This document shows positions 7,763-63,615 of a stretch of DNA of 64,000 nt, one piece after another. The DNA comes from a virus, in the IMG/VR virus record IMGVR_UViG_3300022701_000122, positions 62,001 to 126,000 of that record. One strand, given 5' to 3'. Position 1 is the first letter of the stretch, and each line of letters starts with the position of its first letter. Position numbers and translations under genes: made by a program. Below the pieces are notes generated by a model. The model saw only the letters and a list, made by a program, of their open reading frames with translations, was not told the DNA's origin and did no database searches.

Positions 7763-8752
7763 ATGGCGGGAGAATTAGAGCGTACTTATTTATGGGTAGA
7801 GAAATATAGACCAAGAGAAATAGAAGATATGGTATTACCGGATGATTATGTTAAAACTTTTAATAGATATATAGAAGAAGAGCAAATACCACATCTTTTA
7901 TTTTATGGGCCACCAGGATCTGGAAAAACAACACTTGCTCTTATCTTATTATCAAAAGTAATAAAAGATAGAGCAGATGTATTAAAATTAAATGGTAGTT
8001 CGTCAACTGGTGTAGATATCATGAGAACAACTGTTGATGAATTTTTTAGAACTCCTACATTGGGTGGTTCGAAAGTTAAAGTTGTTTTTATAGATGAGGC
8101 AGATTATTTATCATTAAATGCACAGGCGGCATTAAGAGGAATATTTGAAAAATATCAAAGTCATGGGAGATTTTTATTTACTTGTAATTATAAATATAAA
8201 TTAATCGATCCATTACAATCTCGTTTTGGAACATCTTATGTTTTTTCTCGAATGTCGAAAGAATATATATTTGAAAATTGCGTTAATATATTAAAATCTG
8301 AAAATGTTACATATAATGATAATACGATTAAACGAATTATATCAATAAATTATCCAGATATAAGAAAGATAATATACAGCATTCAAAATCTTGTCGATGA
8401 AAATAATGTTTTAAATTCAAATATAAATGCAATAGCATCAAATGAGAAAAAATTTAGATCTTTTATAAGTGAATTATTTACTGGTCTTGAATCTAAGAAT
8501 GGACAAATAATTGGTAATTCTATAACAAAAATGAGAAAATTGGTTAGTGAGCAAGAACTTGATTATAATATGTTGTACGAAGAATTATTTGAAGATGATT
8601 CTGAAAATATACCAGTATGGGCGAAGATAATTATTAATAAATATGCAAATGATCATAATCAAGCTATGATTCCACCTATGCATTTTATGGCTATGGTATA
8701 TGAAATTGTTAAAGTAAAATCTGAATTTGATAAGCTTAATTTTAGAATCTAA
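7763..8752 (+). CDS. Sliding-clamp loader ATPase (RFC small subunit / T4 gp44-like)
   Basis: 329 residues, the size of T4 gp44. The N-terminus LWVEKYRPREIEDMVLP is the classical RFC box; Walker A is GPPGSGKTT (about residues 49-57), Walker B with DEAD-like acid is VVFIDEAD, sensor 1 is FLFTCNYKYK, and QSRFGT stands where RFC proteins carry the SRC arginine-finger motif. It would load a sliding clamp on primed DNA using ATP. No clamp gene is seen in the window. The gene is followed by two very small genes and the primase, forming a replication operon behind a GGACAAA promoter motif. Confidence 0.93.
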   Translation: MAGELERTYLWVEKYRPREIEDMVLPDDYVKTFNRYIEEEQIPHLLFYGPPGSGKTTLALILLSKVIKDRADVLKLNGSSSTGVDIMRTTVDEFFRTPTLGGSKVKVVFIDEADYLSLNAQAALRGIFEKYQSHGRFLFTCNYKYKLIDPLQSRFGTSYVFSRMSKEYIFENCVNILKSENVTYNDNTIKRIISINYPDIRKIIYSIQNLVDENNVLNSNINAIASNEKKFRSFISELFTGLESKNGQIIGNSITKMRKLVSEQELDYNMLYEELFEDDSENIPVWAKIIINKYANDHNQAMIPPMHFMAMVYEIVKVKSEFDKLNFRI

Positions 8753-8765
8753 TTGGGAGATTAAA

Positions 8766-8975
8766 ATGTCGATACCCGTTAATCATAAACGAAAGTATAA
8801 AGTTGTAAGAACAGATGATAATTTTGAAAATACTTTATCTATACTTGGGGAAGATGGTTGGAAAGTAGTATGTATGAATAATTTTATATGTGTATTAAGT
8901 AAATTTAGTGAAATGTATCTCGATGATCTTATGGCAGAATCAGAACAGGAAAAACCATTTAAAAAAATTAAATAG
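8766..8975 (+). CDS. Small DUF4177-like protein
   Basis: 69 residues. The ATG at 8766 is chosen because TTGGGAG lies just upstream; the longer in-frame start at 8727 falls inside the clamp loader gene. The core YKVVRTDDNFENTLSILGEDGWKVVCMNNFICVLSK has the strand-helix-'GxxGWxVV'-strand pattern of DUF4177 proteins (unknown function). In T4 the clamp-loader ATPase gene is followed by gp62, but this protein is far too short to be gp62 and no similarity is visible. Confidence 0.65.
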   Translation: MSIPVNHKRKYKVVRTDDNFENTLSILGEDGWKVVCMNNFICVLSKFSEMYLDDLMAESEQEKPFKKIK

Positions 8976-9172: not shown

Positions 9173-10219
9173 ATGATTGATTTTCAAAGATTGGAGAATA
9201 CATTAAAAACAAAAACGGGATTATCTTATTATAACAGTAACAGAACAGAATTAATATGTAGATGTCCTTGGTGCGAACTTCAATCAATTAAAAACCATGG
9301 ACATCTATATATACAAGTTCCAATGAATAAAGATCAATTGCCGATGTTTATATGTTTTAAATGCGGTGATGATTCTCGATATGGTAGGGGTACATTATTG
9401 AAATTATTGAGATTTATTGGTGAAGATGTACGACAATATGTATCTAAAGATATATTAGACAGATTTAAATGCAGATTACTTAGATATGATTATCACACCA
9501 AATCTTTTAAAATACATAATTATAATGTTAAAAAAATAGATAATAGTGATCGATATATTTTAAAGAAAAGTTACTTAAAATATAGATTGGGGTTTGATTA
9601 TATTATAGAAAATATACCTGGTCTTATATTTGATATAAGAGATTTTGTTACAAGTAACAAAATTGATTTAGGAGATAAATATAGATTTCTTGATTGGTTT
9701 GAAGATTCATTTATTGGATTTATATCAACGAGGGGCAGTACATTACTATTAAGAAATATAGATGCTACGTCCAAGTTTAGATATTTTAAATTTGATCTTA
9801 ATCCATCTGATTATTTCAGAGATTTTTATGCTATAAAAACAAATAATCTAAAAAAGAATGTAAATACGATTGTTTTATGTGAAGGAATATTTGATTTATT
9901 GGTATCTATAAAGGATTATGGCATGAAAGAAGTTTTAGATAAATCTTGTATATGGGCATCTATACTTGGTAAACATTTTGAAAGTGTTATTCCATCTATA
10001 CTATCATATACAAAACTTTCGGTTGCTAACTTTATAATATTATCCGATAAAACAAAAACTAATAAAAATTACAAATGGTTTAGAAATAATGTATCAGTTA
10101 ATAGTTTAGAAGTCTATTGGAATAAGAATAGAAAAGATTTTGGTGAAAAACCAATTTTTCCTGTTAAAACTGTTATAGATAATCCATTTAAGAATAATGT
10201 TGCATGGAACAGGAGATAG
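9173..10219 (+). CDS. DNA primase, DnaG/T4 gp61-like (zinc finger plus Toprim)
   Basis: 348 residues. An N-terminal zinc-binding module is visible with cysteine pairs at residues 31/34 (CPWC) and 61/64 (CFKC), about the spacing in DnaG-type primases. The Toprim domain begins at about residue 230 with NTIVLCEGIFDLLVSI, where the Glu of 'CEG' is the metal-binding acid. Further on, IILSDKTKTN occupies the place of the second acidic Toprim motif but with a single Asp, so the usual DxD is not evident. There is no helicase domain, so a separate replicative helicase is expected elsewhere. Its place behind the clamp loader supports a replication role. Confidence 0.85.
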   Translation: MIDFQRLENTLKTKTGLSYYNSNRTELICRCPWCELQSIKNHGHLYIQVPMNKDQLPMFICFKCGDDSRYGRGTLLKLLRFIGEDVRQYVSKDILDRFKCRLLRYDYHTKSFKIHNYNVKKIDNSDRYILKKSYLKYRLGFDYIIENIPGLIFDIRDFVTSNKIDLGDKYRFLDWFEDSFIGFISTRGSTLLLRNIDATSKFRYFKFDLNPSDYFRDFYAIKTNNLKKNVNTIVLCEGIFDLLVSIKDYGMKEVLDKSCIWASILGKHFESVIPSILSYTKLSVANFIILSDKTKTNKNYKWFRNNVSVNSLEVYWNKNRKDFGEKPIFPVKTVIDNPFKNNVAWNRR

Positions 10220-33129: not shown

Positions 33130-33744
33130 ATGGTAAAAGGAAAAGAAAAAGGTAATTCATTTGAGAGAGCTATAAGTAAAGAATTATCTCTATTTATTAC
33201 GAATAATGAAAGAGATGATATATTCTATAGATCGCAAAATAGTGGTGGAAGATTTACTATAAGAGATAAGTTAGGCGTATCTACACATAATCAAGATGGT
33301 GATATAACTTCAATGCATCCCGATGGTGATATATTTACTGAAGTTTTTAGTGTAGAATTGAAACACTATAAAAATATAAATATTTGGAGTATTATAACTG
33401 GTGTAAAAAAATCGAAGAGTGTTTTAAATTTTTGGAATCAGACTCAAAATACAGCAGAAAAAGTTAATAAGATACCAATACTTATAGCAAGACAGAACTA
33501 TAAGCCAATATTATTTATTACGAATAATGAATATTTTAAATTAAGTCTTAGTTCTAAATTTGATTTATATCCAATTTTAATATCAAATATATTAACCAAT
33601 GATAATTCTTTATTTATATATTTATATGATTCTATAATTAAATTAAATTCTGATAAATTTAATGAAATGGTTAAACATATTAGAAATGTAAATAGAGAGA
33701 AAAATAAATTGATAACAACTGAATATACTTCAGGTGTGAGGTAA
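33130..33744 (+). CDS. PD-(D/E)XK-type nuclease, possibly Holliday-junction resolvase-like
   Basis: 204 residues. KGNSFERAISKELSLFI is the typical N-terminal Glu helix of Hjc/restriction-like nucleases; YRSQNSGGR resembles the 'R-x-x-x-S-G-G' segment; then GDITSMHPDGDIFTEVFSVELKHYKN provides Asp and E-x-K (ELK) of the catalytic core. Such folds cut branched or damaged DNA or act as endonucleases. The last 70 residues are Asn/Ile-rich and unremarkable. It heads a transcription unit with a DNA-end repair domain and RNR. The exact substrate cannot be told from sequence. Confidence 0.75.
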   Translation: MVKGKEKGNSFERAISKELSLFITNNERDDIFYRSQNSGGRFTIRDKLGVSTHNQDGDITSMHPDGDIFTEVFSVELKHYKNINIWSIITGVKKSKSVLNFWNQTQNTAEKVNKIPILIARQNYKPILFITNNEYFKLSLSSKFDLYPILISNILTNDNSLFIYLYDSIIKLNSDKFNEMVKHIRNVNREKNKLITTEYTSGVR

Positions 33745-33750
33745 TATAAT

Positions 33751-34179
33751 ATGGCATCACGATATACACAATATGTTCTACAAAGACATGAAGCTGTAAA
33801 AGCAAAAACTCATTATGATTTTAGAATGAAATATTTACATAAATCAAAATTGGCATCTTGGGCTATACCAAAAGCGAAGATTCCAAAAAATCCAGGTGAA
33901 AAAGTACTTGCTATCCAAACTGAAGATCATCCAATGTCTTGGTATAATTTTCGGGGAGATATACCGCAGGGGAGTTATGGGTATGGTAAAGTAAGTATTG
34001 AACAGAGAGGATCGCTTGAAGTGATAGGTTGGGGTTCTGATGTTATATCATTTAGAATTCAAAATGGCAAATATATGAATGGTAAATATGCTCTTGTTAA
34101 AACAAAAACTACATATGGGACAGATAAGAAACAGCAAAGTTGGTTATTAGTTAAATCAAAAGATGATCAAGAAGATTAA
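33751..34179 (+). CDS. Stand-alone LigD-type 3'-phosphoesterase domain protein
   Basis: 142 residues behind GTGAGGT. Matches the phosphoesterase (PE) module of bacterial NHEJ ligase LigD: YVLQRHEAVKAKTHYDFRM (with the catalytic His and HYDFR), ASWAIPKA, LAIQTEDHPMSWYNFRGDIP, then IPQGSYGYGKV. The metal-binding His/Asp residues of HYDFR and EDHP are kept. Known PE domains trim 3' ribonucleotides and remove 3' phosphates so that ends can be ligated or extended. Here there is no ligase or polymerase domain attached, and no Ku in the window. Next to a nuclease and RecA/UvsX it probably cleans DNA ends for phage recombination or repair. Confidence 0.88.
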   Translation: MASRYTQYVLQRHEAVKAKTHYDFRMKYLHKSKLASWAIPKAKIPKNPGEKVLAIQTEDHPMSWYNFRGDIPQGSYGYGKVSIEQRGSLEVIGWGSDVISFRIQNGKYMNGKYALVKTKTTYGTDKKQQSWLLVKSKDDQED

Positions 34180-48193: not shown

Positions 48194-51100
48194 GACAATA
48201 AGAAATCAAGATAATTTTATTAATGCTTATACATATATAACTGAACAATTAGATATATATGATTATAAGTTAGAAACTGATATAGATATTCTCGAAATGA
48301 AGTTGAGAGCTTTAGATGGTCCAGTAAATGCTGAAGAATCTGGCGGTATGAAATTCGAATCAAATAAACTATATTTTCCAGATTCAAAAGTTATCATTAC
48401 AACTGATAATGGTCCAAAGATATATAAGTGCAATACTCTTCATGTATCAGGAATAAGAGAATTTAAGAGATTAAGTAAAATACAAAAATGGTCGCCAAAT
48501 ATAACATATAAAGCAGCAAATAGTAAAACTCATACAACTTATAATGGTGGAGCAGATCCCTGGGGAACATACTCTGAATCGTATTATGGTGATGTTGTAA
48601 GTTATCAAGATAAATTATATTTAGTTGTATCAGATTTTACAAGCTGTTATGAATTTGATAATGGATCATTAGATGAAATTGAATCATGGTCATATTGGTC
48701 TAAGTTGACAGATTATGATAATGGAGCATTAGTTGTTTCCAATGGTTATTTATGGGAATGTACTACACCACATGTAAGTGGTGATCTATTTGAAACAAAG
48801 CCATCTTTCTTTAGTAAATATTGGACTGAAGAAGGAGATGCTTTAGTTTGGGAATCTGATTCAAATGTGCCAATTGATCATTTTTCTTCTCTAAAAAATG
48901 AGTTACAATTATTGGATTTATATGTGAGAACAGAAGAAGACAAATTAATTGGAAATGAAATGTCATATAGTGAAGAAATTAATAAACGAGTAGTTCAAAT
49001 GGTTAATTTTTCAATGATGATAAATCTTGATACTGGATATCAAAATCAAGATTTCGATTTTCCAATTATACTTAGACCACCTTTATTAACAACTGATCAA
49101 ACAGAAGAAATATATCAATTATATCTTACTAAAAAAGCAAATAATGAATTAGATGTTCCATCTGATTATTTATTCAAAGTTGCTTCAAATTGTGTAGATG
49201 AGGAAGTCGTAAGTGCTGAGAACTCATTAAGTGGATTTATTTCACCACTTATTCAACTTGATGGAATTAGAGATGCGTCTCAAAAAATGAGAAGTGAACT
49301 TGATTCAAAAATAGCATATAGAGAAAAATTATATGATGAATTACATGATTTAGTATATAGTGTATTAACAACCGATCCAAATGTTACTACAAGAGATCAA
49401 TTATCATTAGCTAAAACATGGCGTCCAAATACAAGATATGAAAAATGGGATATGATAACTTCTGTTAAACCTGGAACCGTTGTTGCTGGATTATATGACA
49501 CATCTACTTTCAGTTTTACTTCAGCTATGGATCATTATGATACGTATGGTTCTCCTGGTCATATATGGATATGTAAATACGCACATACGAGTGGAACCAT
49601 ACATCCGACTATGGATAATACAGATGATCCTCCTCCAGGTCTTGGAAAAAGATCTGTAATGTACAAAGATCCAAATACTGATGAACCAATATGGCCTTTT
49701 CCATATTGGTGTGATGATTGTGAGACAAATTCTGATACTGCTACATGTAGTGAATGTAGCGGATCAAATGTATCTATACTAAATGAGGAAACTATATGGG
49801 TAAGACCATTGTGTACAGATTCTACAGCATTTATAGATTCAAATCTTACATTTAGTCCTAATCAAGATGATCCTCATGATTGGGAATCTGGTTTTATTCC
49901 AATGGTTTATTATCATCATAATTCTTCGAATGAAAGTGTTCTTCCAGATACAACGTTGCAAGATGAAGAGAGTAAATTTGGAGTAGCACAAACACAAGTA
50001 GATTATTCGACATTTGGAATAGTTGATGTAGAAGGTGATACTATACCATTTTTATTACTCAGATATTACAGTATGATATTTAAAATGGATAGATCTGGTT
50101 ATTCTACATCATTAGCAACACCTGTATCCCAAGGTAATCCTTTATATTGGCTTAATGATGCTCTTGATAATTTATCTTTGTCATTCGTTGGAATTGAACC
50201 AAAATTAAATGGTACTTTAGCAGATGAAGTAAAATTATTATCAATAGCATTTATGCCACAACGAAATCATGTTCCACCACAGAATGAGTGTTGCAAAGGT
50301 GGAAGTGGTGAAGGTACAACGATTCCAGAACCATCTGATATTCCAGGAGAACCACTTGAAGACGATACGCAAAGTGTAAAAAGAAGATCACATGATATTA
50401 GTAAATGTAATACATGTGAATTCGAATATGATAGTTGGGTTGATGCATATATATCTGGTTGTCCAAGATGTGGTTCTAATACAGAGCAATCAAGAACTGA
50501 ACTTGGTAGAGCATTAAAACCGATGAATTGTGGTAAAGTTAAACCTTGGTGTACTGGTATGAAAATACATCCATCGTTTGGTCCAAATGGAACGCTATCT
50601 CCAACAAATGCGAAATTTGCGTCACCAGGATCTTCTGATGATCCATATTGTTATGGTGCTGGAGATTCTCCACCAGTTGTATCTGATTGTACACCATGTT
50701 ATGGTTGTAGTATAGCTATACCAGAACCACTTGTTATTCCAACAAATTCAGATACAGTGTTTTCTTATAAAAAAAGAATATGGAAACATTGGGCACAAAT
50801 AGCGACTGGTTGGATTTGTACATATCTAACTGATCCAACAGTAATATGGCCTGGAGATCATCGTGCAGGAGAAAGTGATGATGAATATCAAGATCCAGAT
50901 CCATCTAATCCGGGGTGTGGAGATCCTTCTAATTTTTGGCCATATAATTGGGCAGATGCTCCAGATGCAGTATCTGGTGGATGGAATGATTTTTATGCTG
51001 AACCTGTTAGTAATGCGCCAGGAGATGGATATATATCAAAATATACTGCTATAGATGGTCATGATATAAACACGTATGGTGATTATTATGGTACACCCGA

Positions 51101-57330: not shown

Positions 57331-58257
57331 ATGATAAATGTAATAAATGTAAATAAGTTTATTCGTGAAGGAAAATTGAAGGGTCCGATAACGAGTCCTC
57401 AAATATTCATGGGTAAATCTTATACACCACATCCAGAAGGGTTACATAGCGAAGAAATATTTGGATTAGACGGTTCACCGGAAAGAAGAAATTCGATGTC
57501 GTGGATTGATTTGAACTGTAATGTAATACATCCAGTATTTTATGATATTGTATCTAAACAAATAGAGAAAAAAATTGTTAAACTAATATCTAATGAAGAA
57601 ATGTTTACTATAAATGAAGAGACAGGTGAACTTGTTCAAGACGAAGAAGGGGAATTAACTGGATTTTCAAGTTTTGTTAAAAATATAGATAAAATAAAAT
57701 TTAGAAGAGCAGAAGAAGGATCAAAAGGTAATAGAAATAAGGTAGTTAGTGTTTTAGAAAAAAATATTAAGAATAATACATTTTTTATAAATAAATTGAT
57801 AGTTATTGCACCAGACTATAGACCAATATTTTATTCAGAATCGGATGATCGACCAACAATCGATGAGTTAAATGATATATATAAAAGTATTATAATATTA
57901 TCTAATCAATTAAAAAGTGTATCTGGACCATTATTTGACATACTTAGCTATAAAATGCAGATGTATATGAAAGAATTGTTTGAATGGGTTAAATCGAAAG
58001 TGAGTAAAAAACACGGTATAATAAGAAGAATGATGCTTGGTAAACGAGTAGATTTTTCTGCTCGATCTGTTATATCACCAAATCCAAATCTTAAACTTGG
58101 TGAAGTTGGAATACCACTTAATACGGCGTGTGGTTTATTTGAACCAAATTTGATATATGGTATAGTAAATTCTCCGTATTCCAAAGATATACCAGATGAA
58201 TTTCATGAAGAAGTTAAATCATTTTTGGGTAAAGAATTACTTCCTGATTTAACGTAA
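57331..58257 (+). CDS. RNA polymerase beta' subunit, N-terminal part (split gene)
   Basis: 308 residues. HSEEIFGLDGSPERR matches the start of beta' (S-x-x-I-F-G near the zipper), and KHGIIRRMMLGKRVDFSARSVISPNPNL then LKLGEVGIPLNTA matches the lid/rudder-switch segment (L-G-K-R-V-D-(Y/F)-S-x-R-S-V-I). The zinc-ribbon between them is shortened. The chain stops soon after this motif, and the conserved segments that follow in cellular beta' continue in the gene at 60847, so the subunit is naturally divided. It would be part of a phage-coded multisubunit RNA polymerase. Confidence 0.93.
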   Translation: MINVINVNKFIREGKLKGPITSPQIFMGKSYTPHPEGLHSEEIFGLDGSPERRNSMSWIDLNCNVIHPVFYDIVSKQIEKKIVKLISNEEMFTINEETGELVQDEEGELTGFSSFVKNIDKIKFRRAEEGSKGNRNKVVSVLEKNIKNNTFFINKLIVIAPDYRPIFYSESDDRPTIDELNDIYKSIIILSNQLKSVSGPLFDILSYKMQMYMKELFEWVKSKVSKKHGIIRRMMLGKRVDFSARSVISPNPNLKLGEVGIPLNTACGLFEPNLIYGIVNSPYSKDIPDEFHEEVKSFLGKELLPDLT

Positions 58258-58276: not shown

Positions 58277-58957
58277 ATGTATATATCAGAACAGTATTTA
58301 AATGAATTATCTTATTTCGTAACGCCATACGTTAAAAAATTAATAAATAATATCCCAACTGTTACTAAAAAAGATTTCATTGGCAATGTTGAGCCAGGAG
58401 ATATTGTTCTTGGATTTTCGCCAAGAGAACTGAAAACGGTAAGAACATCTAAGATAATTGCATCTGTTCAACGATCACCATATACTACTTCAAAAATTGT
58501 TGCTGATAATAAGACTATTATTGGATATGGAGTTAAGGCAGTCAATACAGTTGATGAAAATTTTCTTAGAACATATCAATTAAGAAATTTATTAATTGAA
58601 CGACATGAATTATGTTTAATTAGAATAAATGATGCTACACTTACACAAAAAAGAAAAGCTATAGATTTTTGTTTAAATAGACTTGGACTTGAATATAATT
58701 CTTCTGATTTATTGAAAACTATATGGAATGTTTTTACACGAAAGAAACTATTTCCATTTTTTAGAAATGAACCATTGGAGAAAAAAGAAGTAGATAATTT
58801 ACAAAGACCACTTTTTTGTTCTTCTATTATTGCATTGGGTTATTGGTATGCCGGATATAAACATAAATTTAATGGTAAGAGTCCATACGAACTTTGGCCT
58901 ATTGATTTTTTAATTGATGATAATACAACTGGTGTTTGTAGAGTGGAGCAATTATAA
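58277..58957 (+). CDS. YiiX/YaeF-like permuted papain-like hydrolase with leader motif
   Basis: 226 residues. The N-terminus MYISEQYLNEL is a motif shared with two neighbours. VEPGDIVLGFSP is the usual opening strand-turn of NlpC/P60-type and YiiX domains; RPLFCSSIIALGYWYAG holds the likely catalytic Cys, and in the middle ELCLIRINDATLTQKRKAIDFC matches the helix preceding it. YELWPIDFLID fits the 'S-P-x-x-L' ending. Such enzymes hydrolyse amide bonds in peptidoglycan or proteins. It sits between the two RNA polymerase beta' halves. Confidence 0.65.
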   Translation: MYISEQYLNELSYFVTPYVKKLINNIPTVTKKDFIGNVEPGDIVLGFSPRELKTVRTSKIIASVQRSPYTTSKIVADNKTIIGYGVKAVNTVDENFLRTYQLRNLLIERHELCLIRINDATLTQKRKAIDFCLNRLGLEYNSSDLLKTIWNVFTRKKLFPFFRNEPLEKKEVDNLQRPLFCSSIIALGYWYAGYKHKFNGKSPYELWPIDFLIDDNTTGVCRVEQL

Positions 58958-58976
58958 AAAATAAAGGATAATCGTA

Positions 58977-59264
58977 ATGATGGATTTTTTTAAAGAACGT
59001 CACATTTATGATAAGTTAGTAGATGATAACGTATTAGTATGGGAAAGTCATGAAGATGATGTAGATTATTTTGTAAAATGGACGAGAGTAAGTGATAATG
59101 AACACAGAATAAGAGAACATGTGCCAGTTAATAGATGTAATACATTTGGTCAATCAAGATTAAGTTTAAATTTTTTAAAAAAAGGAAAATATCAAATAGA
59201 TATAACTGCATATAGTGAAAAAGGTCTTCAGAGTGATAAGTCATCTATTTTATTGTCAATATAA
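58977..59264 (+). CDS. Small Fn3/Ig-like protein, 95 residues
   Basis: Behind AAAGGATAAT; Met is doubled at the start. Beta-rich with VDYFVKWTRVSDNEH and YQIDITAYSEKGLQSDKSSI, the look of a fibronectin type III-like fold (W, then 'Y-x-(V/I)-x-A-x-x-x-x-G-x-x-S'). Function unknown. The next gene also encodes an Fn3-like protein, exported in that case. Confidence 0.55.
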   Translation: MMDFFKERHIYDKLVDDNVLVWESHEDDVDYFVKWTRVSDNEHRIREHVPVNRCNTFGQSRLSLNFLKKGKYQIDITAYSEKGLQSDKSSILLSI

Positions 59265-59323
59265 CAAACATTTTTATTAGTTAATGTCAATAGTATAAAC
59301 ACTGGTAAGAAAGGATTAAAGAA

Positions 59324-59728
59324 ATGAAGAAATTAAATTTTACATTAATTTTATTGCCGATTATTGTTGTTTGTTTTATGGTTTCCCCATTATTTGCTGC
59401 AACTGTAACATTAACATGGAATCAACCAAATGAATCGGAAGAAAATATTACGGAATGGGAAGTGTTTTGGGGATACGAGGGTAGAGGTGGAAACGGTGAA
59501 GAGTTTGTATACCAATTTAATCCAACCACAAATTCAGAATTACTTGTGACTGAGAAAACATGCGTTATAGAAAATGTAGATAATGGAAAACAGACATTTT
59601 ATGCAGTTAGAGCCAAATCTGGAGAAGTAAGAAGTTTTTATTCAGAAGAAGTATCAACTACTATTCCATTATCAAGTCCATCTGGAATTCAGATTAATAT
59701 ATCGATAACGATTACAACAAATCCATAA
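59324..59728 (+). CDS. Secreted Fn3-like protein with Sec signal peptide
   Basis: 134 residues behind GAAAGGATT. The N-terminus MKKLNFTLILLPIIVVCFMV then SPLFAA is a clear signal peptide with an Ala-x-Ala-like cleavage site near residue 25. The mature part is a single fibronectin type III-like domain (VTLTWNQPNESEENITEWEV; FYAVRAKSGEVRSFYSEEVS). Exported to the periplasm or surface, it could act in superinfection exclusion, adhesion or lysis timing; this is inference. Such exported proteins are unusual between RNA polymerase genes. Confidence 0.7.
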   Translation: MKKLNFTLILLPIIVVCFMVSPLFAATVTLTWNQPNESEENITEWEVFWGYEGRGGNGEEFVYQFNPTTNSELLVTEKTCVIENVDNGKQTFYAVRAKSGEVRSFYSEEVSTTIPLSSPSGIQINISITITTNP

Positions 59729-59769
59729 ATAATTAATAGTAATTATATAATAAATAAAATGGGTGATTT

Positions 59770-60273
59770 ATGTTTTTATCAGAAGAATGCATCAATGAAA
59801 AAATAAATTTAAGTGAAGGAAAATTTTGGGAATGGTTAAAGAAAGTATTCTATGATCATAATCCAAGACATCCACGAATGGTAGAATTAAATCAAGATTA
59901 TTATGAATATATTTGGCATTGTAAAAGAGATCATCGAGATACAACGATGAAAGCAAATATTCCAATTGGTAATGATACTGAAATAAAAATGGATTACGAT
60001 GAAGAAAATATTCAAAAGACTGCATGTGTTCTTGAAGCACGTATTGAATATTTAGAAGGAATAATAGCTGTTATAGAGGAGGAAGGTATAGAGGAAGTTT
60101 GTCAATATAATAAATATAAATCGGAATGTCACAATGTATCACGTAATCTTCTTAGAGCATCAAAAATACGATTAAAACATGATAAAAAATATCTGCAAGG
60201 AATAAAATCTGGAAGGGTAAAACCAAGACGAGATTTTAAAGCAGAATTAGATAATGCCAAATATATAATTTAA
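59770..60273 (+). CDS. Unknown 167-residue protein with SEQ-type leader motif
   Basis: Begins MFLSEECINEK, related to the starts of the genes at 58277 and 60291. The body is helical, charged, with scattered His/Cys (WHCKRDHRDTTMK; CQYNKYKSECHNVS) but no regular metal site. C-terminal part is basic (KSGRVKPRRDFKAEL). No family is recognised. Confidence 0.6.
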   Translation: MFLSEECINEKINLSEGKFWEWLKKVFYDHNPRHPRMVELNQDYYEYIWHCKRDHRDTTMKANIPIGNDTEIKMDYDEENIQKTACVLEARIEYLEGIIAVIEEEGIEEVCQYNKYKSECHNVSRNLLRASKIRLKHDKKYLQGIKSGRVKPRRDFKAELDNAKYII

Positions 60274-60290
60274 AATGAGAATAATAAAAA

Positions 60291-60656
60291 ATGTTTATAT
60301 CAGAACAATACTTAACTGAAATGTCTGTTACTGTAAAATATAAACGAAAATTATTTGATGCTATTGTTTGCCCAAATAGTGGCTTATATTTTTTAGCTGA
60401 TTTTAATGATTGGTCTATAGAATGGGCTGAATATGTTGCTCTTGAAGAAGATATAGATAAAATAACTGAAGATCATTGGAAAGTAATTCATTTTATTCGA
60501 AGTTATTACTCTAAATATAATAGACCACCACGTTTAAGAACAATATTTCGTAAAACTGGATTTAAGTTAATGCATATTTATGAACTATTCCCAAATGGTC
60601 CTGGTCGTGGTGCTGGACGAATGGCTGGACTCCCATATAAACAACTTCCGATATAA
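60291..60656 (+). CDS. DsrC/TusE-like protein lacking the conserved cysteines
   Basis: 121 residues. The core FLADFNDWSIEWAEYVALEE then ITEDHWKVIHFIRSYYSKYN, RPPRLRTIF, and YELFPNGPGRGAGRMAGLP follows DsrC/TusE closely. In the family the C-terminus carries a penultimate Cys, and DsrC also has a Cys about ten residues earlier; here these places read GRGAGRMAG and GLPYKQLPI, so both are missing. It begins with an additional MFISEQYLTEM segment. Thus it is probably not a sulfur carrier but a diverged structural or regulatory homologue (inference). A terminator follows. Confidence 0.85.
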   Translation: MFISEQYLTEMSVTVKYKRKLFDAIVCPNSGLYFLADFNDWSIEWAEYVALEEDIDKITEDHWKVIHFIRSYYSKYNRPPRLRTIFRKTGFKLMHIYELFPNGPGRGAGRMAGLPYKQLPI

Positions 60657-60764: not shown

Positions 60765-60846
60765 ATATATTAATATAATCTAAATAAAATAAGATAATAA
60801 TATATATAGTTACAACAACGCTATTTAAACAATGAGAGGTCTAAAT

Positions 60847-63615
60847 ATGGCGGTTGAGAAAATAACAACGGAAGAAGCAAGAAACATATTGTTAATGATG
60901 AGTCAAGGGTATAAAGTTCCAAAAATTGTAAAAGATGTAATATTTAAAGTTGCTAAGACGGAGATAGAAGATAAAGGGAGAGTCGTAATTATAAAACGCG
61001 ACCCAAATGTGGGATCACGTCGTATGCAGGGTATGTATGCTAAAATAGTTGATGGTAGTACTATGGAAATACATCCTGCTATCGTCGGTGGGTTTGGCGC
61101 AGATTTTGATGGTGACACCGTTAGGTGCAGACTTCGATGCACTTGTAAATTTGAGAAAAACGAAACAGGACATACTGTGAATCACGAATGTCATATAGGA
61201 GAAATTTTATCTGTTACTAATGCATTTGAGTTTTACAGTAAAGAAGAAAAAAGAAATGGTATATTGGTATCGAAATATAAGCCTAAAAAAGGTTATACTG
61301 TAAAAATAAAAGCCATTGATATTGAAACTGGCAATGTTGAGATGAAAAATGTTTCTGAATATTCTATCCACGAATTTATAAAATTATACAAGATAGAAGA
61401 TACAAAAGATAGATTTGAAACGATTCATGCTTCTTCAGATCATTCATTAATCGTTTATGACGATAATGATAAACAGATTAAGAAAATTTCTCCTATAGAC
61501 TTGTTGGAAAATCTTAATAATAGATATTTAATCAAAGAAAATAATAATACTAAATCAAATCATTTAAATGATATATCTATACAAAAACTGCAAGAAATGG
61601 GATTAGAATTAATACCAGTTTCAGAAGTTAATATAGAGTATGATCCAGATGAAACAACTGGATATGATTTAACAGTAGATGATTTCTATACATTTGCAAC
61701 TCATGATGGTTTATTTATTCAAGATACAATGGCTGTTTATCATCCAATTTCAAATGAAGCCCAAAAAGAAGTCAAAGATAAAATGATTTCTACATATGGT
61801 ATAGAAGGATTAAATAAACCAAATTTTGAGTTATCAAAAGAAATGTTGACTGGTATTTTCACTCTTACATATGATGAGAATAAAAAATCTCAAATCAAAA
61901 CTATAAAAAAAGCAGATGAAGCGAATACGTTACCCATTGATCAACGTGTTAAATTCAATGATATAGAAACAACTGCTGGTAGAGTTGTATTTAATAGTAA
62001 TTTACCAAAATATATTCCATTTGTTAATGAACCAATTGATAAAAAGAAATTAAATGGAATACTTGCAGGTATATTAGAAAAAAGTATTCAAGACAATGCC
62101 ACTACAATTGATAAATTAATGAGAATTGGATTTTTTTATGCTACTGTATACCCAAAAACTATGTCTATCGATATGATGAAATTAAATCCAAAACTTATTA
62201 AACTTAAACAAAAATTAGCCAATGAAGAAGATATTGCCAGACAAATGGATATTCAGAATGAAATGGAATCTGAAATGTTGAAATATCTTGAAAAAAATCA
62301 TAGCGATATTTTTTATATGGTTAAAAGTGGTGGAGCTAAAGGGAGTAATCAGATACGTCAATTAATGGTTGCGAAGGGATTAACATCAGACCCAATGGGA
62401 AATGTTATACCAGCAATTTCTACCAGTATTTCTGATGGTTATTCTCCAGAAGAATATTTTAAAGTGTCTGCTGCTGGAAGGAAGGGTATAATTGATAGAG
62501 CATTAAACACCGCTAACGGTGGATATGCTTATAGAAAATTTATCTTCTTAATGGCGAATGTTGAAGCAGATATAAATATTGGTGATTGTGATACTCCAAG
62601 AACATTAGATATCAAACTAACTAATGAATTGATGAAAAGAATGCCTGGAAGATATGTATATAATAATAGTAATAAGATAATTCCCATTAATGAAAAAATG
62701 ATTGGAAATGTTATAAAATTAAGATCTCCAATATTCTGTAGATCACAAAAGATTTGTAGAATTTGTTATGGTGATTTATTGAAACAATTGAAGAGTAAAA
62801 ATGTAGGTATTCTGGCTAGTATGACCTGCACCAGCCTTTCAGAGCGCATAATGAAAGCATTTCATCTTGGTGGTGCTGTTATATTAAATAGAGTTGATAT
62901 TATAAATGAAATTATGGATAATTTAAATGATGATATGTTGCAAAAAGTTAAATCATTAGTTCATCAGAAGGAAGATGACTTATTCAATGATTCTGAATTT
63001 GCAACTATAAGAATAGATAAAAATATATATAATTCAACTATACCATCAAATAGAATAGTCGAAGAACATGGTTTTATAAAATTAGTAGTTGGTCATTTTA
63101 CATTATCTTTAGATGGGTTTGAAATAAATGTTGAAATAGAACAACCAGTTAAAATATATATTCCAGAAGAACGAGAAGATAATGATAATATAATATCTTG
63201 TATGTACGCAAAAGGAGATAAATTATTTAGAATTGAATCAATAAGAGAAGATTTTTCAAAATTGGCTCAGAATCTTGATGGGTTGGTTGCTGGAAAGTCT
63301 CCGTGGTCAAGTATTCCCGGTATATATAAGAAATTTTATAAACAGTTAAGTGTTGTTGGATCATGGGATTCAGTTCATTTAGAAACTATTATTTCAAATG
63401 TATTGAGAGCAAAGCGTAATCCACAAAAACCAGCAAGATTGGTTGAACCATTTGATCCAGATTTTTATTCAATTAAGAGATTGCCAGGAATGATGTCATG
63501 GCCCCTTGGCGTAGCCCTCGAAAATTTTTCTGTGGGGTTGCAAAGTGGGCTATGTGAGGATCGTGCTCCATCATCTCAAATTGAAAAAGTATTATTTGGA
63601 GAACCATTGTATTAA
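60847..63615 (+). CDS. RNA polymerase beta' subunit, C-terminal part, with an intein
   Basis: 922 residues from the ATG behind GAGAGGT (60847); 719 after splicing. The extein contains RDPNVGSRRMQGMYAKIV then IHPAIVGGFGADFDGD, the Mg2+-binding loop of the catalytic site, continuing TMAVYHPISNEAQKEV. Later motifs include SVSAAGRKGIIDRALNT-like text (KVSAAGRKGIIDRALNTANG), the trigger-loop region, and a C-terminal CRICYGD zinc-binding cysteine set. It forms the active site with the part encoded at 57331. Whether the two chains assemble with a beta subunit cannot be seen here, because beta is not in the window. Confidence 0.93.
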   Translation: MAVEKITTEEARNILLMMSQGYKVPKIVKDVIFKVAKTEIEDKGRVVIIKRDPNVGSRRMQGMYAKIVDGSTMEIHPAIVGGFGADFDGDTVRCRLRCTCKFEKNETGHTVNHECHIGEILSVTNAFEFYSKEEKRNGILVSKYKPKKGYTVKIKAIDIETGNVEMKNVSEYSIHEFIKLYKIEDTKDRFETIHASSDHSLIVYDDNDKQIKKISPIDLLENLNNRYLIKENNNTKSNHLNDISIQKLQEMGLELIPVSEVNIEYDPDETTGYDLTVDDFYTFATHDGLFIQDTMAVYHPISNEAQKEVKDKMISTYGIEGLNKPNFELSKEMLTGIFTLTYDENKKSQIKTIKKADEANTLPIDQRVKFNDIETTAGRVVFNSNLPKYIPFVNEPIDKKKLNGILAGILEKSIQDNATTIDKLMRIGFFYATVYPKTMSIDMMKLNPKLIKLKQKLANEEDIARQMDIQNEMESEMLKYLEKNHSDIFYMVKSGGAKGSNQIRQLMVAKGLTSDPMGNVIPAISTSISDGYSPEEYFKVSAAGRKGIIDRALNTANGGYAYRKFIFLMANVEADINIGDCDTPRTLDIKLTNELMKRMPGRYVYNNSNKIIPINEKMIGNVIKLRSPIFCRSQKICRICYGDLLKQLKSKNVGILASMTCTSLSERIMKAFHLGGAVILNRVDIINEIMDNLNDDMLQKVKSLVHQKEDDLFNDSEFATIRIDKNIYNSTIPSNRIVEEHGFIKLVVGHFTLSLDGFEINVEIEQPVKIYIPEEREDNDNIISCMYAKGDKLFRIESIREDFSKLAQNLDGLVAGKSPWSSIPGIYKKFYKQLSVVGSWDSVHLETIISNVLRAKRNPQKPARLVEPFDPDFYSIKRLPGMMSWPLGVALENFSVGLQSGLCEDRAPSSQIEKVLFGEPLY
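61117..61725 (+). other. Intein in the RNAP catalytic loop (203 aa, non-standard ends)
   Basis: Inserted exactly between GADFDGD and TMAVYH. The intein would begin TVRCRLRCTCKF and end TFATHDGLFIQD, followed by Thr. Block B is probably HASSDHSLIVYD (S-x-x-H instead of T-x-x-H); block F/G is GYDLTVDDFYTFATHDGLF. The usual first Cys/Ser and last His-Asn are absent: first residue Thr, last residues Gln-Asp. A cysteine/histidine group close to the start (RCRLRCTC...HECH) may bind metal. No LAGLIDADG repeats are seen, so it is a mini-intein type. Confidence 0.75.

Follow-up and report, generated by a model that had tools for sequence, protein, structure and literature searches.

The internal proteins IPI, IPII and IPIII of phage T4 are three small, unrelated proteins that have approximately 10 N-terminal residues in common, reading MKTYQEFIAE in IPII and IPIII. 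Residues 4 and 7 of this leader direct targeting and residues 8 and 10 direct processing, and cleavage of the capsid protein gp23 and the L/I-x-E rule for the cut site have been described as well (PMC9026906). DarB of phage P1, a large protein that reaches the cell, is likewise packaged by means of an N-terminal signal; however, this signal lies within 30 residues and the Dar proteins have no common consensus (PMC9024508). In the giant phages phiKZ and SPN3US, many head proteins, including ejection proteins, are cut after Glu by the prohead protease, but at an S/A-x-E motif that lies in propeptides and at several sites (PMC9026906). Finally, InPase, GNAT and peptidase domains of the polyvalent proteins (Iyer 2017) have been proposed to be packaged and injected, although as parts of multidomain polypeptides without a described common leader (PMC5512222). 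Here, we analyzed a giant phage in which one short consensus stands at the start of many separate proteins, and we consider it probable, judging from the sequences, that this shared N-terminus is a T4-like capsid-targeting sequence with a consensus of its own.

The window, a stretch of 64,000 nt, corresponds to bases 62001 to 126000 of a 182,757-bp phage record (G000). The IMG/VR record 3300022696_000071 (G008) is 100% identical to this phage wherever stretches were compared and is collinear with it over approximately 84 kb; since G008 extends the record, the phage genome probably measures about 300 kb. Proteins encoded at record positions 1 to 22000 and 145001 to 182757 were covered by DNA patterns only. 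A DNA comparison with annotated phages gave no match, and a search of viral contigs for relatives of the DsrC-like protein and the β′ piece described below returned none.

Within the window, an RNA polymerase β′ gene is split into an N-terminal piece (57331 to 58257, plus strand) and a C-terminal piece (60832 to 63615, plus strand), the latter with an intein-like insert at approximately residues 158 to 292. As a sequence-only reading of this DNA had noticed, three neighboring plus-strand genes between the two pieces start alike, with MYISEQYLNEL, MFLSEECINEK and MFISEQYLTEM; the first 10 residues of each constitute the leader (58277 to 58306, 59770 to 59799 and 60291 to 60320, respectively). 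The interval holds five genes in total, and those at 58977 to 59264 and 59324 to 59728 have no leader; the second of these encodes a 134-amino-acid, secreted-looking protein with an N-terminal signal-like stretch. The proteins behind the leaders had been described as papain-like, unknown and DsrC-like. The last identity is firm, with residues 34 to 115 of the 121-amino-acid protein (60291 to 60656) matching PF04358 at an E value of 7e-24, and the middle protein (167 amino acids, 59770 to 60273) indeed has no family match. The first is weak, in that the 226-amino-acid protein (58277 to 58957) matches Peptidase_C92, a permuted papain-like amidase family, at an E value of 0.001, which is below the curated cut-off; its predicted structure has a mean pLDDT of 32. 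The DsrC-like protein ends in GLPYKQLPI and lacks the Cys that is typical of the DsrC C terminus.

The leader follows the consensus M(x0-2)-[YF]-[IVL]-S-E-x-[YF]-[IL], an N-terminal peptide of approximately 10 residues, and its occurrence turned out to be wider than first seen, with about 15 proteins of this phage starting in this way. Strict matches outside the window are located at record positions 7818, 48254, 130646, 134947, 135076 and 135606, the last being a second leader preceded by a variant first one, and looser forms occur at 133842 and 134372; the extra part of G008 adds further leader proteins at 93834, 134327 and 135117. That the starts resemble one another by chance could have been argued as long as there were three of them, because short motifs do recur. 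This explanation, which we regard as practically nil in probability, is refuted by four controls. Seven N-termini among 110 non-overlapping genes match the strict 9-residue pattern, against a mean of 0.0015 in shuffled N-termini; the only match among 35,936 internal positions falls on a protein with two leaders, of which it is the second; the reversed pattern has no match; and two leader patterns run against a viral collection of 2.9 million contigs retrieved 4 and 7 stretches, all of which belong to this phage or its relatives. Leaders of the same genome cannot be counted as independent, since a 45-nt leader stretch stands twice, at 98% identity, at positions 8947 and 9606 of locus L006, the copy at 9606 being joined in frame to another leader and that at 8947 now forming a 23-codon open reading frame (ORF). 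At G008:C1:133856 (L048:1498), a long open frame is preceded by a leader that an in-frame TAG breaks, MFISE*FLNES. Recoding of this TAG was considered and rejected; TAG otherwise serves as an ordinary stop in this phage, terminating 11 of 93 genes, and a scan of selected stretches revealed no tRNA.

Relatives were found through RNA polymerase β, in which G001 and G003, two other phage species, are 48% and 47% identical to this phage, respectively; G002 is identical to G003 in the compared parts. Each of the two species has 8 to 10 leader starts. With a relaxed start-anchored pattern, G000, G001 and G003 yield approximately 10 matches apiece, compared with 0 to 1 for the reversed controls and for three phages that are more distant. 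In an alignment of 34 leaders, Ser4 is present in 34, Glu5 in 33, an aromatic residue 7 in 32 and Ile, Leu or Val at position 8 in 33, counts that serve as a description of the family and not as a test, because the leaders were gathered with the pattern itself. The leader also stays on homologues that have diverged behind it, as in the protein at record position 48254 and its counterpart at G003:53000 (shuffle z of 20 outside the leader) or in the middle gene at 59770 and its ortholog-like partner at G001:39592, which starts MYISEEYVIKA (shuffle z of 12 outside the leader).

Since the leader is short, AT-rich and located at the start codon, and since near-identical copies stand in tandem, one could suppose that the genes form a single paralogous family or that the shared stretch acts as DNA, as a translation-start element or in another regulatory role. 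The codons tell against this, however. Synonymous codons differ among leaders (TCA/TCT/TCG, TAT/TAC, CAA/CAG, GAA/GAG), amino acid exchanges keep the chemistry, and the upstream DNA is neither shared nor alignable; we therefore conclude that selection acts on the leader peptide. In addition, the consensus is kept across species that are about 47% identical in RNA polymerase β, and the domains behind it are unrelated, as the sequence-only reading had held for the first three proteins. They comprise the C92-like amidase and DsrC-like domains, a GNAT-like domain (E value of 0.002, below cut-off), an SNF2-type helicase, an M48 protease (E value of 7.5e-15), an InPase (E value of 2.5e-47) and an EF-Tu domain 2-like match that is below cut-off, in addition to several membrane proteins and small basic proteins. 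Collectively, these data render the paralogue or DNA-element explanation very unlikely.

The leader lies outside the recognized domains of its carriers and is gained or lost as a module. The SNF2-type helicase at record position 130646 starts MYTYLSEEYIEEFT-M, and its ortholog in G001, which is 54% identical, starts MIFLDV with no leader ahead of the start; by eye, the initial Met of the G001 protein aligns with the Met just past the leader of the helicase at 130646. At G001:C1:234587 (L036:1486-1530, minus strand), a 14-codon ORF consists of the leader alone, MYVSENYLEENLKG, and the gene right after it starts MNITENYIKK, perhaps a variant leader.

A T4-like signal had been proposed from the first three leaders, and the head genes of this phage are of the T4 type. 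The genome encodes a gp23-type major capsid protein (MCP Gp23, E value of 2e-30) and, as the proposal entailed, a prohead protease, which is encoded on the minus strand at record positions 33178 to 33891, belongs to the gp21 family (S77; PF03420, E value of 3e-10; phrog_207, E value of 6e-30) and by its match to this Pfam family differs from the phiKZ and SPN3US systems. The gp23 capsid protein is present in all three phage species and the S77 protease in two of the three, with no match in G001, which may be a fragment. Around residue 70, the capsid proteins of the three species invariantly read LMENS, which contains an L-x-E site at which gp23 would be expected to be cut. No scaffold protein gp22 was identified, which counts against the capsid-targeting reading. 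In G003, the portal gene (gp20, PF07230) is followed by genes for an acidic protein of pI 4.4, two leader-bearing basic proteins of pI 11.7 and 11.2, and the protease, while the order in T4 is 20-67-68-21 with gp67 of pI 4.1 and gp68 of pI 10.1. These two leader proteins of G003 hence occupy the position of T4 gene 68, a prohead-core position; the correspondence lies in position and charge and does not extend to sequence. Together with the collection-wide specificity of the pattern, this position is the strongest evidence for capsid targeting. The portal-position protein of this phage (G000:C1:34462-39207; L026:12462-17207, minus strand) has 1,581 residues, two intein-splicing matches and an HNH endonuclease domain, and the portal ortholog of G003 has an intein, too.

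The likeness to the T4 leader is partial. Aromatic residue 7, Ile or Leu at residue 8 and Glu10 coincide with MKTYQEFIAE, but the leader here reads Y-I/V-S-E where T4 has K-T-Y-Q, and the T4 targeting residue Tyr4 (IPIII has Tyr4 and Phe7) is Ser in every leader aligned. Ser4-Glu5 is nearly invariant here, whereas Glu10, which the majority of leaders in this phage and about half of those in G001 possess, occurs in 0 of 8 leaders of G003. An [IL]-x-E motif ending at residues 8 to 14 is present in 8 of 10 leader proteins and in 9 of 90 others. The proposed cut after Glu thus fits this phage and G001 at residue 10 but not G003, where the lack of Glu10 implies that the cut falls after the residue-5 [IVL]-S-E or further in, or that the leader is not removed. 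That the leader would work like the T4 signal has good support from these comparisons; the likeness concerns the way of working, and homology is not claimed because residue 4 differs. The cargo is also more numerous and varied than the three T4 proteins and includes membrane proteins and the helicase of 654 amino acids.

In the mechanism that we envisage, the prohead core would bind the leader during head assembly, and any protein carrying it would be built into the prohead. The gp21-family protease would then cut behind the leader Glu, after residue 10 in this phage and G001, a cut after residue 5, with its invariant [IVL]-S-E, being possible as well. Cleavage would free the cargo within the DNA-filled head, from which it could enter the cell alongside the DNA and act at once.

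The genomic surroundings would also fit a different destination. Phages of the phiKZ and SPN3US type have two polymerase sets. The β′ gene occurs at two loci in these phages, as it does where a virion polymerase exists alongside a non-virion one; one locus is largely uninterrupted, and the other is split, with leader genes beside or inside it in all three species, which hints that the split set may be a virion polymerase. Many leader genes cluster by the split β′ gene and the β gene, and several cargoes are membrane proteins, so that the leader might instead sort proteins to a replication compartment, the inner membrane or the neighboring polymerase complex. We find this improbable. Leader genes are also found far from polymerase genes, and two of those in G003 lie within the head-assembly cluster; the absence of the tubulin PhuZ (no PF00091 match in G000, G008, G001 and G003, records that may be fragments) is a weak argument against a nucleus of the phiKZ type. 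Moreover, leader proteins could be both packaged and associated with the polymerase if that polymerase is borne by the virion.

Under the capsid-targeting reading, a single mobile leader cassette might serve as a general loading tag in this clade of giant phages: host-takeover enzymes would join the injected set by gaining a 10-residue leader, and the leaders of a genome would predict its injected proteome, possibly with the virion-borne polymerase encoded beside them. We see the case for this wider proposal as evenly balanced. If it is right, one short pattern would suffice to list, from sequence alone, which proteins uncultured giant phages inject, unannotated proteins would acquire candidate functions in host takeover and counter-defense, and a second natural capsid-targeting code would be available besides that of T4 for comparing recognition by the prohead core.

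Among the cargoes, the InPase stands out in that the annotations of its phage homologues read 'internal head protein' or 'DarB-like antirestriction'. Basic charge was considered as a general mark of the leader proteins of this phage and was rejected (P of 0.23 versus its other proteins); small, very basic leader proteins do occur in the relatives. The leader membrane protein at L043:1387-2271 is reminiscent of CPBP intramembrane proteases in having an EExxR motif with His motifs farther on, and its Pfam search gave no match. Spaced cysteine pairs of approximately C-x(7-12)-C recur in the C-terminal parts of several leader proteins (window positions 59770 to 60273, L007:1501-2181, L057, L064 and L069), hinting at a common small domain.
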